Made by a program: the position numbers and the translations under genes. 20,617 bases of DNA, taken from contig VBLA01000093.1 in NCBI GenBank assembly GCA_005879245.1, positions 1-20,617 of the forward strand. The letters are read 5' to 3'. Each line of letters opens with the position of its first letter. The stretch's first letter is position 1. A model generated the notes under the pieces. It saw only the letters and a list, made by a program, of their open reading frames with translations. It was not told the origin of the DNA and searched no databases. Below are positions 11,801 to 16,138 of this stretch, piece after piece. The stretch is from Deltaproteobacteria bacterium (GTDB lineage: Bacteria > Desulfobacterota > Binatia > DP-6).

Positions 11801-12295
11801 TCAATGGGATGCGGGCACGCCGGGGCTCGGTTTCCCCTCACCCTTCTTGCCGTCCGGGAACCACTTCGGGACGTCCGCCGGCTCGACGATCAGCTGCTGG
11901 TCGACTTTCCAGGCGCCGTCCTCCTTCACCAGGGTGTAGAGCTCGTGCTCGGTCAGCCCGAGCTGGTTCACGAAGCGGTCCTGCGAGGACAGGATGTTCG
12001 GAACAGAGGCCCGCTCACCCTCGATCTTCCCGGGGTACACCCGGAATTCGAAGATCTTGACGTCCGCCCACTGCATCTGGGCCGTCTGCTCCTTGATCCA
12101 GACCTCCCGATCCTTCCCGCCCTTCATCGCCTTCGAGACCAGCTCGTAGGTGACGTCGAACTTCCCGTCCTTCATCGACTGGAGGTACCGGCGGACGGTC
12201 TCCTCCGGGGTGGCCCGCTCTTCCGCGACCGCGACCGAGCCCACCAGCGCGAGACAGAGCGCCGCGACCGCCCGCGTCAACGTGGAAGGGGCCAC
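11801..12295 (-). CDS. Secreted NTF2-like protein of unknown function
   Basis: This 164-residue protein begins VAPSTLTRAVAALCLALVGS, a signal peptide likely cleaved after AVA. The mature part begins EERATPEETVRRYLQSMKDG, then KFDVTYELVSKAMKGGKDRE, EFRVYPGKIEGERASVPNIL and HELYTLVKEDGAWKVDQQL. This is the helix-strand pattern of DUF4878/NTF2-like exported proteins, with the usual 'DGxWKVD' strand near the end. The GTG start at 12295 is preferred because GGAGG lies four bases upstream; an ATG at 12313 would place that site inside the gene. First gene of the operon with YCF48 and RND (72-base gap). It may bind a hydrophobic ligand in the periplasm, but this is inference. Confidence 0.75.
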   Translation of the reverse strand: MAPSTLTRAVAALCLALVGSVAVAEERATPEETVRRYLQSMKDGKFDVTYELVSKAMKGGKDREVWIKEQTAQMQWADVKIFEFRVYPGKIEGERASVPNILSSQDRFVNQLGLTEHELYTLVKEDGAWKVDQQLIVEPADVPKWFPDGKKGEGKPSPGVPASH

Positions 12296-12377
12296 TTGGC
12301 CTCCGTAGCACATGCGGCGCGGGACCCGGAAGCGGGTGACGAATCTTCACCGCGGACACACTTTTTCGCCGCAGCTG

Positions 12378-12391
12378 GCACAGCCTAGTGC
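12378..12391 (+). promoter_or_regulatory. Dyad GCAC-N6-GTGC upstream of sigma-54 promoter
   Basis: GCAC and GTGC are inverted with a six-base gap, 33 bases before the sigma-54 promoter at 12424. A related dyad, GTGCC-N5-GGCAC, lies before the promoter at 13244. It may be an activator site; short and unproven. Confidence 0.3.
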
Positions 12392-12423
12392 GGGGAACCT
12401 CCGTCGTTCTTTGCGTACGCCCG

Positions 12424-12439
12424 TGGCACGTCACTTGCT
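12424..12439 (+). promoter_or_regulatory. Sigma-54 promoter (perfect -24/-12) for the XRE regulator
   Basis: TGGCACGTCACTTGCT matches the sigma-54 consensus TGGCACG-N4-TTGCW at every fixed base, with GG and GC ten bases apart. RNA would start near 12451, leaving about 45 bases to the ATG at 12497. The NtrC-type activator encoded at 13310 is the obvious candidate partner. Confidence 0.85.
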
Positions 12440-12496
12440 GCCGACCTCCCCACGCCACTCACGCACGGCAGGGATGCCGAAGCAAAGGACGCGACG

Positions 12497-12721
12497 ATGG
12501 AAGACAATGCTGGCAATCTGATTCGCAGCCTTCGCCAGAAGCTCGGCATGACGCAGGAGGAGTTCGCCCACGAGATCGCTGTCACGGTCTCGACGGTGAA
12601 TCGCTGGGAGAACGCTCACGCGGAGCCGAGTAAGCTCGCCTGGAAAGCAATCCAGGACCTGGCCCGCAAGCGCGGCCTGACCGACGACGTGCTGCGGCGC
12701 GCCGGTCTGCCCGCCGAGTGA
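12497..12721 (+). CDS. XRE-type helix-turn-helix regulator (74 aa)
   Basis: This 74-residue protein is almost entirely one HTH domain: GNLIRSLRQKLGMTQEEFAH, then EIAVTVSTVNRWENAHAEPS. The TQEEFA helix and the STVNRWE recognition helix are classical XRE/Cro features. There is no sensor domain. It starts with ATG after AAAGGA and sits directly downstream of a perfect sigma-54 promoter and 125 bases upstream of the Flp pilin gene, in the same direction. This suggests it controls the pilin module, perhaps as a repressor or fine-tuner. That role is inferred from position. Confidence 0.88.
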   Translation: MEDNAGNLIRSLRQKLGMTQEEFAHEIAVTVSTVNRWENAHAEPSKLAWKAIQDLARKRGLTDDVLRRAGLPAE

Positions 12722-12743
12722 GCCGACGGGCCCTGGCAGCGGC

Positions 12744-12759
12744 TGGCACACTTGGGGCC
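12744..12759 (+). promoter_or_regulatory. Weaker sigma-54-like promoter before the Flp pilin gene
   Basis: TGGCACACTTGGGGCC has a full -24 box (TGGCAC) and the invariant GC of the -12 box at correct spacing, but GG replaces TT. RNA would start near 12771, about 75 bases before the pilin ATG. Confidence 0.5.
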
Positions 12760-12846
12760 CGCCTGACACATCGCGGTCCGCGGCGACGCGTCGCGCCCCG
12801 GGTCGGGCGCCCGCGCGGTACCGGGCTTGCTTCCAGGAGGACCGCC

Positions 12847-13023
12847 ATGACCGTCGTGAAGTCACTCCTGCTCGATGAGAGCGGCCAAGGTATGACGGAA
12901 TACGCCATCCTGATCGGTACTCTCGCGCTCGGCGCGATCGTCGCGCTGCTGGCGATCGGCACGCAGGTGCGAAACGCCTTCAGCCACACCCCGAAGCAGC
13001 CGAACGGCGTACCGGCCAGCTAG
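12847..13023 (+). CDS. Flp family type IVb pilin
   Basis: This is a 58-residue prepilin. The leader MTVVKSLLLDESG is followed by QGMTEYAILIGTLALGAIVA. The Gly before Gln, with Glu at +5 and Tyr at +6, is the cleavage motif of Flp/Tad pilins, and a single hydrophobic helix follows. The tail (THVRNAF-like; here GTQVRNAFSHTPKQPNG) is short. The start ATG has CAGGAGGA upstream at ideal distance; an in-frame upstream start at 12718 is rejected. Processing would be by a CpaA-type prepilin peptidase, encoded at 14716. Tad secretion genes (ATPase, secretin, platform proteins) are not in the window. Confidence 0.9.
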   Translation: MTVVKSLLLDESGQGMTEYAILIGTLALGAIVALLAIGTQVRNAFSHTPKQPNGVPAS

Positions 13024-13089
13024 CCGTCCGTCCGCGATCGACTTCTCCTTCCCCCGACCGTCCCCAGCTTCGATAGAGGCGAGAATCTA

Positions 13090-13117
13090 GCGGAGCGGCA
13101 ATCATCTGACGCTCCGC
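13090..13117 (+). promoter_or_regulatory. Inverted repeat GCGGAGCG-N12-CGCTCCGC between pilin and activator genes
   Basis: Perfect 8-base arms at 13090-13097 and 13110-13117 lie 66 bases after the pilin stop and about 130 bases before the sigma-54 promoter at 13244. It may be a terminator stem for the pilin RNA (no T-run) or an upstream activator site. The position suits both. Confidence 0.45.
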
Positions 13118-13243
13118 GCCCGGCCGCGGCGAGCGCCGGGCATGCCTGACGATCACATCCGCGAGCCGCCGACGCCGCGGCCCGACAGCGCTTTCTTCGA
13201 GCCGTGCCAACCCGGCACAGCGCGCTCGGCCCCGAACGGCACA

Positions 13244-13259
13244 CGGCACGCCCCTTGCG
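13244..13259 (+). promoter_or_regulatory. Sigma-54 promoter for the NtrC-type activator gene
   Basis: CGGCACGCCCCTTGCG matches TGGCACG-N4-TTGC except for the first base. RNA would start near 13271, 39 bases before the ATG at 13310. It implies autoregulation of the activator. A dyad GTGCC-AACCC-GGCAC at 13204-13218 lies just upstream. Confidence 0.75.
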
Positions 13260-13309
13260 TCAGACGTGACACACTGAGCCGCCGCCGAGCCGGTGGCCTT
13301 CCTCGCCCA

Positions 13310-14716
13310 ATGACGGACCAACACGCGATGCTGGGAGCAGAGACGTCGGGAGCCGACGGGCACGATCGGCCGAAGGTCATGGTGGTCGAAGACGACCCCG
13401 ACATCCGCAAGATCCTGGAGCTGTTTCTCACCGAGAAGGCGTTCCGGGTGAAGTCGGCGGAGAGCGCTTCGCAGGCGCTCGAGATGCTCGCCGAGGAGCC
13501 CATCGATCTGATCCTCTCCGACGTGCGCATGCCGAACATGAGCGGGCTCGATCTCCTGCGCCATCTGAAGGAGCGAGATCCCGAGATCCAGCTCGTGCTC
13601 ATGAGCGCCTACTCGAGCGTGAAGGACGCGGTGGAGGCGATCCGCCTCGGCGCGGCCGACTACGTCGAGAAGCCGATCGACTTCCGCCGCCTCGAACGGG
13701 TGCTGCAGACAGTCCTCGAGAAGCGCCACCTCCAGCACCGCACGCGCATCCTGGAGCAGCGCCTGCAGGGGTGCGTCACCTTCGAGGGCATGGTGGCGCG
13801 TTCACAGCAGATGCTGAGCGTGTTTGCCTTCATCGAGCGGCTCGCTCGCTACCCGACCACCGCGCTCGTGACCGGCGAGAGCGGGACCGGCAAGGAGCTC
13901 GTGGCGCGCGCGCTGCACGAGCTCTCGCCGCTGCGCGACCGGCAGCTGGTCATCTGCAACTGCACGACGCTCGCACCGACGCTCCTCGAGAGCGAGCTCT
14001 TCGGTCACACGCGCGGCGCCTTCACGGGTGCCGACCGCGATCGCAAGGGCCTCTTCGAGGCCGCGCACGGCGGGACGATTTTCCTCGACGAGATCGGCGA
14101 GCTGCCCGTCGGAGTCCAGGTCAAGCTGCTGCGGGTGCTGGAGAACCGCGAGATCAAGCGGATCGGCTCCCCCGATCCGATCCGCATCGACCTGCGCGTG
14201 GTCGCGGCGACCAACCGCGACCTCGCCGCGATGGTACAAGCCGGCACCTTCCGGGATGACCTCTACTACCGGCTGAACGTGGGCGCGATCTTCCTCTCGC
14301 CGCTGCGGAGCCGCATCGACGACATCGAGCCGCTCACGCACCACTTCGTCCGCATCTTCCGCGAGAAGCTCGGGCGGAACGTGACCGGGCCGGCGCCCTC
14401 CGTGCTCGATATCTTCGCCCGCTACCCCTGGCCCGGTAACGTGCGCGAGCTCGCCAACGTCATCGAGCGGGCGATGGTCGTCTCGAAGGGGAGCACGATC
14501 CTGCCCGAGAACCTGCCCCCTCATCTGTTCGAGACGCGTCCGGTCACCGTCGGCGACGCGCCGTTGATGCCCGACCTGAGCCTGGAGGCCGCCGAGCGCG
14601 AGCAGATTCTCCGGGCACTCCAGGCCTCCGGCGGGAAGCGCGTCGAGGCCGCGCGGCGACTCGGTCTGTCGCGCCGGACGCTCTACCGGAAGCTCGACCG
14701 CTACGGGATCGCGTGA
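13310..14716 (+). CDS. NtrC-type sigma-54-dependent response regulator
   Basis: This 468-residue protein has three domains. The receiver (22-140) has Asp28/Asp29, phosphoacceptor Asp71 (LILSDVRMP) and Lys121 (EKP). The AAA+ domain (about 158-390) has Walker A GESGTGKE (189-196), the sigma-54 contact loop GAFTGA (236-241) and Walker [13 protein letters not shown] Fis-type HTH lies at the C terminus ([20 protein letters not shown]). All motifs needed for sigma-54 activation are intact. The start ATG at 13310 is chosen because the receiver follows directly and a sigma-54 promoter lies at 13244; an in-frame start at 13142 would place the promoter inside the gene. No histidine kinase is nearby. 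Its stop overlaps the start of the prepilin peptidase gene. Confidence 0.93.
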
Positions 14717-15258
14717 TGGCGCCCGGCCTGTGCGCCACGGGAGCCCTCCTCCTCTACGTCGGGCTGGCCGTGCTGTGGGATGTGCGCGAGAGGCGCATCC
14801 CGAATTGGCTCTCGGGGACGTGGCTGCTCGTCGCACTGCCGAGCGCCACCCTCGACGAAGGGATCGGCCTTCCGGCTGCGCTCGCCGGACTCGGCCTCGC
14901 TGGAGCCGCGCTGCTCGGACCGTATCTCGCCGGCGCGGTCGGCGCGGGGGACCTCAAGTTCGCCGCCGTCGCAGGCGCCTGGCTCGGCCCCCGTCTCGCG
15001 CTCAACGCCCTCCTGTTCGGGATGGCAATGGGGCTCCTCGTCGCCCTCGGTGCCGCGGCGACGGTGGGACGGGCAGGTGCCGCGGTGCGCGCCTCGGCGC
15101 GGCTCCTGTGGCTCCTCGGCGCGGCGGGGTCCGCCGCGCCCCTCACCCCCGGGGTGGCGAGCGCGGAGCCGCTGGCACCGATCCCCTACGCCGTGCCGCT
15201 CGGCGCCGGGGTCGTCGCGGCGGTGCTCCTCGCTCCGCACGGCTGGCTACTCGTCTAG
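14716..15258 (+). CDS. cpaA: CpaA-type A24 prepilin peptidase
   Basis: This 180-residue polytopic membrane protein carries both catalytic Asp motifs of A24 peptidases: WDVRERRIPNWL (Asp22) and GAGDLKF (Asp79, the GxGDxK motif). Hydrophobic segments surround these, e.g. ALLLYVGLAVL, LALNALLFGMAMGLLVAL and PLGAGVVAAVLLAP. It would cleave the Flp pilin leader. The length is typical of the short CpaA/TadV form, without the N-methyltransferase domain. The start ATG overlaps the upstream TGA by one base (TGATG); GTG at 14713 is an alternative. Same operon as the activator. Confidence 0.88.
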   Translation: MAPGLCATGALLLYVGLAVLWDVRERRIPNWLSGTWLLVALPSATLDEGIGLPAALAGLGLAGAALLGPYLAGAVGAGDLKFAAVAGAWLGPRLALNALLFGMAMGLLVALGAAATVGRAGAAVRASARLLWLLGAAGSAAPLTPGVASAEPLAPIPYAVPLGAGVVAAVLLAPHGWLLV

Positions 15259-15275
15259 AGAGGAGAGCGACGATC

Positions 15276-15692
15276 ATGTCGGATTCCGATCGCAAGCCGC
15301 GCATTTTGATCGTCGAAGACCATCCGCTGATCGCCGAGCTGGTCGAGACGCGACTGCGCATCGAGGGCATGCAGGCGATCAAGTGCACCAGCGGCCGGGA
15401 AGCGCTCGAGGTCGTCGACGGCGAGTTACTCGACGTGGTCATCCTCGACATCATGATGCCCGACGTCGACGGTTACGAGGTGCTCCGCCACATCCGATCG
15501 AGGTCCACCACGGCGACGCTCCCGGTAATCTTCTTGACCGCCAAGTCGACCCCGGCCGACATCGAGAAGGGGCTGGCGATGGGCGCCAACTACTACATCA
15601 CCAAGCCCTTCAGCGGCCTCGACCTGGTGCGCAAGGTCCGTCTCTGCCTGGGGGAGCACGCGGTGTCCTCGCAGCCACCGGTCGTCGGATGA
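15276..15692 (+). CDS. Single-domain CheY-like response regulator
   Basis: This 138-residue protein is a lone receiver: Glu14-Asp15 (LIVEDHP), phosphoacceptor Asp58 (VVILDIMMPDVDGYEVL), Thr88 (FLTAKS) and Lys110 (YYITKPFS). There is no output domain, so it acts by protein contact, like CheY, DivK or PilG. AGAGAGGAGAG upstream provides the ribosome site. It lies 17 bases after cpaA and its stop overlaps the ATG of the protease gene (ATGA). It may modulate the pilin apparatus or relay phosphate to the NtrC-type regulator. No cognate kinase is visible. Confidence 0.9.
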   Translation: MSDSDRKPRILIVEDHPLIAELVETRLRIEGMQAIKCTSGREALEVVDGELLDVVILDIMMPDVDGYEVLRHIRSRSTTATLPVIFLTAKSTPADIEKGLAMGANYYITKPFSGLDLVRKVRLCLGEHAVSSQPPVVG

Positions 15693-16138
15693 GGGGCCGG
15701 ATCGTCCTTCTCGCCCTGGTCGCGCTGCTGGTCGCGATGCCCCTCGCAGCCGACTGGGCGGGAGGGCTGCAACGCGAAGTCCCGCTCGACGGCAACGGCA
15801 ACACCTGGCTCGTGCATGCCACCGTGAACGGCAGCATGAACGGCCTTTTCCTCCTCGACACGGGCGCCAGCTACTGCGTGCTCGCCCCGACCGCCGCGCG
15901 ACGCCTCGGCGTGAAGGCCAGCGGCGAGAACGTCGAGATCCGCACGGCCAACGGCGTGGTCCGGGCCCCCGTCATCGAGCTCGCGACCGTCGACGTGGGC
16001 GGGAACCGTGCCCGGCAGGTCCGCGCCATCGTCCATCCCGCGGTCGCTCCTCCACTCGACGGCATCATCGGTCTCAGCTTCCTCAACCACTTCAGCTACG
16101 GGGTCGATCCACGCCGGCGGGTGTTGCGCCTCAACTAG
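15689..16138 (+). CDS. Retropepsin-like aspartic protease, exported
   Basis: This 149-residue protein begins with a signal peptide or membrane anchor (MRGRIVLLALVALLVAMPLA). The protease motif is FLLDTGASYCVL (Asp57-Thr-Gly-Ala-Ser), followed by VRAPVIELATVDVGGNRARQ and the closing motif LDGIIGLSFLNHFSY. This is the clan AA, single-domain retropepsin-like family of bacterial envelope proteases that work as dimers. The start ATG overlaps the receiver stop by ATGA, so it is translationally coupled. That makes it part of the pilin-regulator operon and suggests processing of an envelope or pilus protein; the target is unknown. Confidence 0.88.
   Translation: MRGRIVLLALVALLVAMPLAADWAGGLQREVPLDGNGNTWLVHATVNGSMNGLFLLDTGASYCVLAPTAARRLGVKASGENVEIRTANGVVRAPVIELATVDVGGNRARQVRAIVHPAVAPPLDGIIGLSFLNHFSYGVDPRRRVLRLN

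Follow-up and report, generated by a model that had tools for sequence, protein, structure and literature searches.

The window, by which we mean the whole stretch of DNA that was analysed (20,617 nucleotides, bases 1-20617 of contig C418), belongs to a metagenome-assembled genome (G000; 3.19 Mb, 590 contigs, 81% complete). It contains the following genes and predicted regulatory elements:

12335..12351, + strand: stretch ahead of P1 that reads GGTGA-N7-TCACC in the window, a candidate activator or repressor site, partly conserved among six aligned loci of family f1
12424..12439, + strand: predicted sigma-54 promoter P1, TGGCACGTCACTTGCT, predicted start at about 12450, conserved in orthologous loci
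12497..12721, + strand: small XRE (HTH_3) regulator, 74 aa, PF01381 at 45.9 bits (cut-off 23)
12744..12759, + strand: claimed promoter P2, a weak sigma-54-like site, TGGCACACTTGGGGCC, score 15.9, unsupported
12847..13023, + strand: Flp-like pilin, 58 aa, GQGMTEYAIL motif, PF04964 at 16.9 bits, short of the gathering score of 32.2
13244..13259, + strand: predicted sigma-54 promoter P3, CGGCACGCCCCTTGCG, predicted start at about 13270, preceding EBP orthologues
13259..13270, + strand: dyad GTCA-GACG-TGAC, a candidate operator, situated between -12 and the predicted P3 start
13313..14716, + strand: EBP with receiver, sigma-54 AAA+ (GAFTGA) and Fis-type HTH domains, 467 aa, PF00072, PF00158 and PF02954 over cut-off
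14716..15258, + strand: prepilin peptidase of the A24 family, 180 aa, its shortness being TadV-like, PF01478 at 46 bits (cut-off 26.5)
15276..15692, + strand: stand-alone receiver protein, 138 aa, PF00072, a conserved partner
15689..16138, + strand: retropepsin-like aspartic protease, 149 aa, TIGR02281 at 63.6 bits (cut-off 57.95), a conserved partner

The XRE protein combines a single HTH_3 domain and a TVNRWENxHxxPSK-like helix with a sigma-54 site at most 300 bases upstream of its gene, which places it in a family of such small regulators; PADLOC returned only weak HTH matches for it. The EBP translation contains GAFTGA and the domains of the NtrC family, in agreement with the GAFTGA-bearing activator described in the initial annotation, and it stays below the cut-offs of the NCBIfam equivalogs for AtoC, NtrC, ZraR and the PEP-CTERM PrsR type (best 443.7 bits against 714). 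We class the pilin as Flp-like on the basis of its shortness, its G-x4-EY motif, a hydrophobic stretch and relatives in Tad clusters; it matches G021:C51, where CpaB and TadA are also found, at E 2.9e-6, and a search for the Flp family in its own genome found none. Rfam and tRNA scans over the window gave no match. Within 12200-15300, no sigma-70-like promoters were found, and there is one terminator-like site where 0.9 are expected.

The genome encodes sigma-54 itself: rpoN is present (G000:C273, E 7.8e-62), which removes the objection, raised in the initial annotation, that the gene might be lacking. We used the consensus TGGCACG-N4-TTGCW, with GG and GC at -24/-12 spacing; PMC2725144 gives a similar one. 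In this genome we count 18 matches to the strict pattern TGGCAC-N5-TTGCW, compared to 2 for the reversed control, and across the seven f1 genomes 165 versus 15. By eye, sigma-54 sites in this genome lie upstream of type IVa pilin-, PilT-, PilM-, FliA- and GlnK-like genes, and these sites before genes for pili and flagella resemble the control of the cell exterior by sigma-54, which Francke et al. tie to flagella and pili (PMC3162934). The loose pattern (at most three mismatches) is no commoner in the window than expected (24 sites against 24.56), so that the weight is carried by two strong sites and their conservation. Sites were scored with hand-set weights on this consensus, not with a trained matrix, and the maximum is 19.1. 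The cut-offs, chosen after first looks, are unequal: 16.9 for XRE, 16.3 for Flp, and 16.3 and 16.7 for EBP genes. A reversed-weight control at the same cut-off accompanies the counts for XRE genes, their listed relatives in the named collection, other genes and windows, Flp genes and control EBPs. Genes in the relatives, which we handle as G genomes grouped into families (f1, f2, f6, f7 etc.), were called with a crude script of our own or by eye.

P1 matches the consensus without mismatch, and none of 30 Markov-shuffled copies of the window contains a site that scores as high. Orthologues of the XRE gene in f1 and f7 have a site of 18.5 or 19.1 upstream in all 10 loci. Thus, the perfect sigma-54 promoter that had been proposed at 12424 is borne out by conservation. 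P3 has two mismatches and scores 17.5; the window holds three sites of at least 17.5, compared to a mean of 0.17 in the 30 shuffles. We identified 13 EBP orthologues (E 2.2e-163 or less; six in f1, four in f7 and three in f6), whose upstream sites score 16.3 to 18.5, all 13 at 16.3 or more and 12 at 16.7 or more, 16.7 being the cut-off applied to the controls. As controls we hand-picked 20 further NtrC-type EBPs of the class from the homologue list (E 1.6e-123 to 2.7e-102, 19 genomes); a site at 16.7 precedes just one of them, and the reversed control likewise gives one. Since the site precedes 13 of 13 orthologues compared to one of 20 other EBPs, P3 is a property of this EBP lineage, and the near-perfect promoter claimed at 13244 before the NtrC-type regulator is likewise borne out by conservation.

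Three binding sites that had been suggested for this regulator did not hold up. GCAC-N6-GTGC at 12378-12391 keeps its left part alone in five f1 relatives, GTGCC-N5-GGCAC at 13204-13218 is unconserved in five f1 relatives, and 13090-13117 is a GC-rich hairpin behind the pilin gene, a gene that none of five f1 relatives has at this place. By eye, the f1 alignment shows no upstream site that P1 and P3 share, and it therefore provides no evidence of one EBP serving both. We also considered an XRE-specific operator derived from word enrichment and rejected it, since CGTCAC/GTGACG is insufficiently specific: it occurs before 24 of 52 XRE promoters (5.1 expected), before 11 of 40 other sigma-54 sites and in 12.7% of random windows.

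Upstream of P3 the sequence drifts within f1, while the alignment shows that the promoter and TTGCGTCA-N4-TGACA are kept. When 38 genomes were searched for the dyad pattern TTGCGTCANNNNTGACA, it was found once per genome in six of six island-bearing f1 genomes, always at P3, and elsewhere a single time, inside an open reading frame of G025; the reversed control gave 0. Near the EBP gene and P3 of f7 and f6 the exact dyad is absent, and f7 does have the XRE gene. Judged by this pattern of conservation, the dyad GTCA-N4-TGAC at P3 is likely an operator. The part between -12 and the start must melt, and a protein bound to the dyad should thus block P3. The XRE protein is the obvious candidate for the binder and the EBP is another. 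The conserved position of the dyad, across the stretch that melts, fits a brake.

XRE, EBP, the stand-alone receiver and the aspartic protease constitute a conserved island, whose gene order is shared among relatives. The receiver and the retropepsin-like protease (window 15276-16138; L032-L036, L048, L049, L281) are constant partners of the EBP in f1 and f7. Divergent from the island are SnoaL-like and YCF48-like genes, plus MMPL in f1. In f7 a histidine kinase gene (by Pfam for G018, by position and likeness for the others) lies on the opposite strand between XRE and EBP, and in f6 the EBP keeps P3 but is found without XRE, receiver or protease.

P1, P3, the P3 dyad and the gene order are established by comparison, as features of sequence. 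Our best explanation for them, which we give roughly an even chance, is an island under sigma-54 control that contains its own regulatory loop. The sigma-54 form of RNA polymerase would transcribe the XRE gene from P1, in this genome probably together with the Flp gene that follows, and the EBP gene from P3. We infer that phosphorylated EBP, most simply the one encoded by the island, activates P1 and P3 and thereby raises the EBP level, and that XRE protein made from P1 would occupy the dyad in the melting part of P3 and cap the loop. The island may once have formed part of a locus for a Tad (Flp) pilus, with each lineage retaining different pieces of it. Counting against the loop are the lack of a shared upstream site at P1 and P3, the missing exact dyad in f7 and f6, the non-specificity of CGTCAC/GTGACG and the occurrence of P3 without a neighbouring XRE gene in f6.

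These observations could also be explained by a cascade without feedback, in which a different activator drives P1 and P3, the island EBP acts only elsewhere, e.g. on pili, and the protein on the P3 dyad is a partner of the other activator, the EBP or a third one. We take this seriously but rate it clearly below an even chance. It would agree with the lack of a common upstream site at P1 and P3, with five further close EBP homologues in this genome (E 1e-100 or less) and with the many XRE genes of f1 and f7 that have no adjacent EBP gene. However, EBP and sigma-54 promoter occur together in all 13 orthologues, in f6 even without the other island genes, which a self-acting EBP explains simply.

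The interior of the island varies. In the window it consists of Flp and the A24 peptidase, whereas G002, G003 and G005 have a TadA/CpaF ATPase, G001 a peptidase-like piece (42% over 121 aa), G012 a ParA/TadZ-like ATPase, and G004, G018 and G037 Flp-like frames, none of which reached Pfam; the island of G024 has nothing at that place. The pilin, which the initial annotation had put at the centre of the module, does not have this role, since the islands of several relatives lack Flp and contain other Tad pieces or nothing in its place. Of the components TadA, CpaB/RcpC and TadE that define a Tad pilus system, none was found in this 81%-complete genome. Neither TadA (E 1e-20 or less) nor TadE turned up in any of G000, G001 and G004; CpaB had no match in G000 and, in G001 and G004, weak matches below the cut-off alone. 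In G018 (93% complete), which has a Flp-like frame, no TadA or TadE was found, and G003 and G005 have a second TadA with CpaB on another contig. The window Flp may thus be an orphan, though in a genome that is 81% complete.

A decaying Tad locus, of which the island with its real promoters would be a remnant containing an idle pilin and peptidase, would explain why TadA, CpaB and TadE were not found in this genome and in G004 and why the Tad pieces vary between relatives. We consider this quite unlikely, because the XRE, EBP, receiver and protease frames are intact in the relatives read, and because Tad parts could lie on contigs missing from the incomplete assembly.

The weaker promoter that had been claimed at 12744 before the pilin gene has GG and GC correctly spaced, but it is near chance: sites of at least 15.9 number 14 in the window, compared to a mean of 7.3 in the Markov shuffles. 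A rival weak site at 12816 (16.0) reaches the likely ribosome-binding region of the pilin, and the gene is missing at this place in the five f1 relatives. The pilin starts 125 bases past the XRE stop codon and could be transcribed from P1. Chance matching in GC-rich DNA is an adequate account of P2 and agrees with the unenriched loose pattern; as an account of the sigma-54 sites in general it is made highly improbable by the conservation of P1 and P3, with its controls.

For the class as a whole, the proposed link between sigma-54 and Flp genes was recovered. A site of at least 16.3 precedes 17 of 21 Flp-like matches (15 distinct sites, since two tandem pairs share one; the count includes G008:C8, which is situated in a 636-aa open frame), compared to 0 of 21 in the reversed control, and a site of at least 16.9 precedes eight. 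The window pilin is one of the four Flp-like matches without a clear site. For tandem Flp genes in G021, G028 and G035 (L142, L180, L181), a separate sigma-54 site precedes each match by 68 to 82 bases. If true, this link would mean that Flp pilins, like type IVa pilins, come under sigma-54, and that they commonly do so across a whole class.

The operons glnALG (NtrC) and zraSR are self-activating EBP operons, and the PilA pilin of Geobacter sulfurreducens is of type IVa. As in glnALG and zraSR, the activator gene of the island lies behind a sigma-54 promoter; unlike them, the island adds a small XRE gene, which a sigma-54 promoter of its own precedes, and a dyad that is conserved across the part of the EBP promoter that melts. 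With Tad (Flp) loci the islands of the relatives share Flp, a TadV-like peptidase and TadA/CpaF- and ParA/TadZ-like ATPases, but no island read has the complete set. In G. sulfurreducens the gene of the EBP PilR adjoins the pilin gene pilA, which has an RpoN-dependent promoter (PMC2725144). EBP and pilin genes adjoin here as well; however, the promoter there is named for pilA, whereas the conserved ones here precede XRE and EBP, and the Flp-like pilin is an optional passenger. Word searches of main texts found neither Flp nor Xre in PMC3162934, and none of pili, Tad, Flp and sigma in the Binatota genome paper (PMC8262859). The parts are of known kinds, and what we rate as new is that XRE and EBP each lie behind a conserved sigma-54 promoter, together with the dyad over the melting region. 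If true, uncultured bacteria would gain a sigma-54 circuit that can be predicted, that includes its own brake and that is testable in E. coli.

The XRE protein has 95 matches in the 38 genomes, 67 of them at E 1e-14 or less. These 67 closer genes, which are kin (14 clusters at 70% identity, one at 60%), have a sigma-54 site of at least 16.9 within 300 bases upstream in 52 cases, compared to 0 of 67 in the reversed control. At 70% identity, six clusters have the site in all members, two in some and six in none. Among the remaining 28 matches, the site is found in 7 of 11 with E up to 8.1e-9 and in 0 of 17 weaker ones. Other genes in the XRE loci have it in 12 of 252 cases (reversed control 9 of 252), and random windows in 2.9%. 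In the named collection, among the matches listed, a site precedes 32 genes out of 47 from closer relatives (reversed control 1 of 47), some of the 47 being from the same genomes as in the 38-genome set. Of the 33 more distant XRE proteins listed, many of them from Firmicutes, one has a site.

It is tempting, if doubtful, to regard this tiny XRE clade of Binatia-like bacteria and a few other phyla as a dedicated sigma-54 feedback arm, each member being made from a sigma-54 promoter, some from leaderless messages, and repressing via a GTCA-type dyad over the melting region, as would happen at P3. If true, regulators of about 60 to 85 residues would be recognisable by their promoter type.

In the paralogous XRE loci L037, L039, L043, L044 and L045, 12 or 13 bases separate the end of the element TGGCACGTCGGTTGCT from the ATG, so that their sigma-54 messages are predicted to be leaderless; the window XRE gene has an orthologue in G003 that is arranged likewise. 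Longer proteins with an N-terminal XRE domain are also encoded behind sigma-54 sites (L136:3844-4689, L286:1451-2461, L289:1326-2381, L293:1772-2653) and seem on inspection by eye to contain a membrane stretch and to end in a GspC/PilP-like part. One longer XRE-domain protein of G006 is encoded near two Flp genes. Another XRE group (L117, L120, L152) has the site TGGCACCTGGGTTGCT and lies beside a Mrp-like ATPase and a Smr-like gene (by eye), in stretches that gave no EBP match. Finally, XRE relatives in KSB1 and other bacteria outside the class (L218, L219, L224, L229) have the sigma-54-like site GGGCA(C/T)G-N4-TTGCA about 95 bases upstream.
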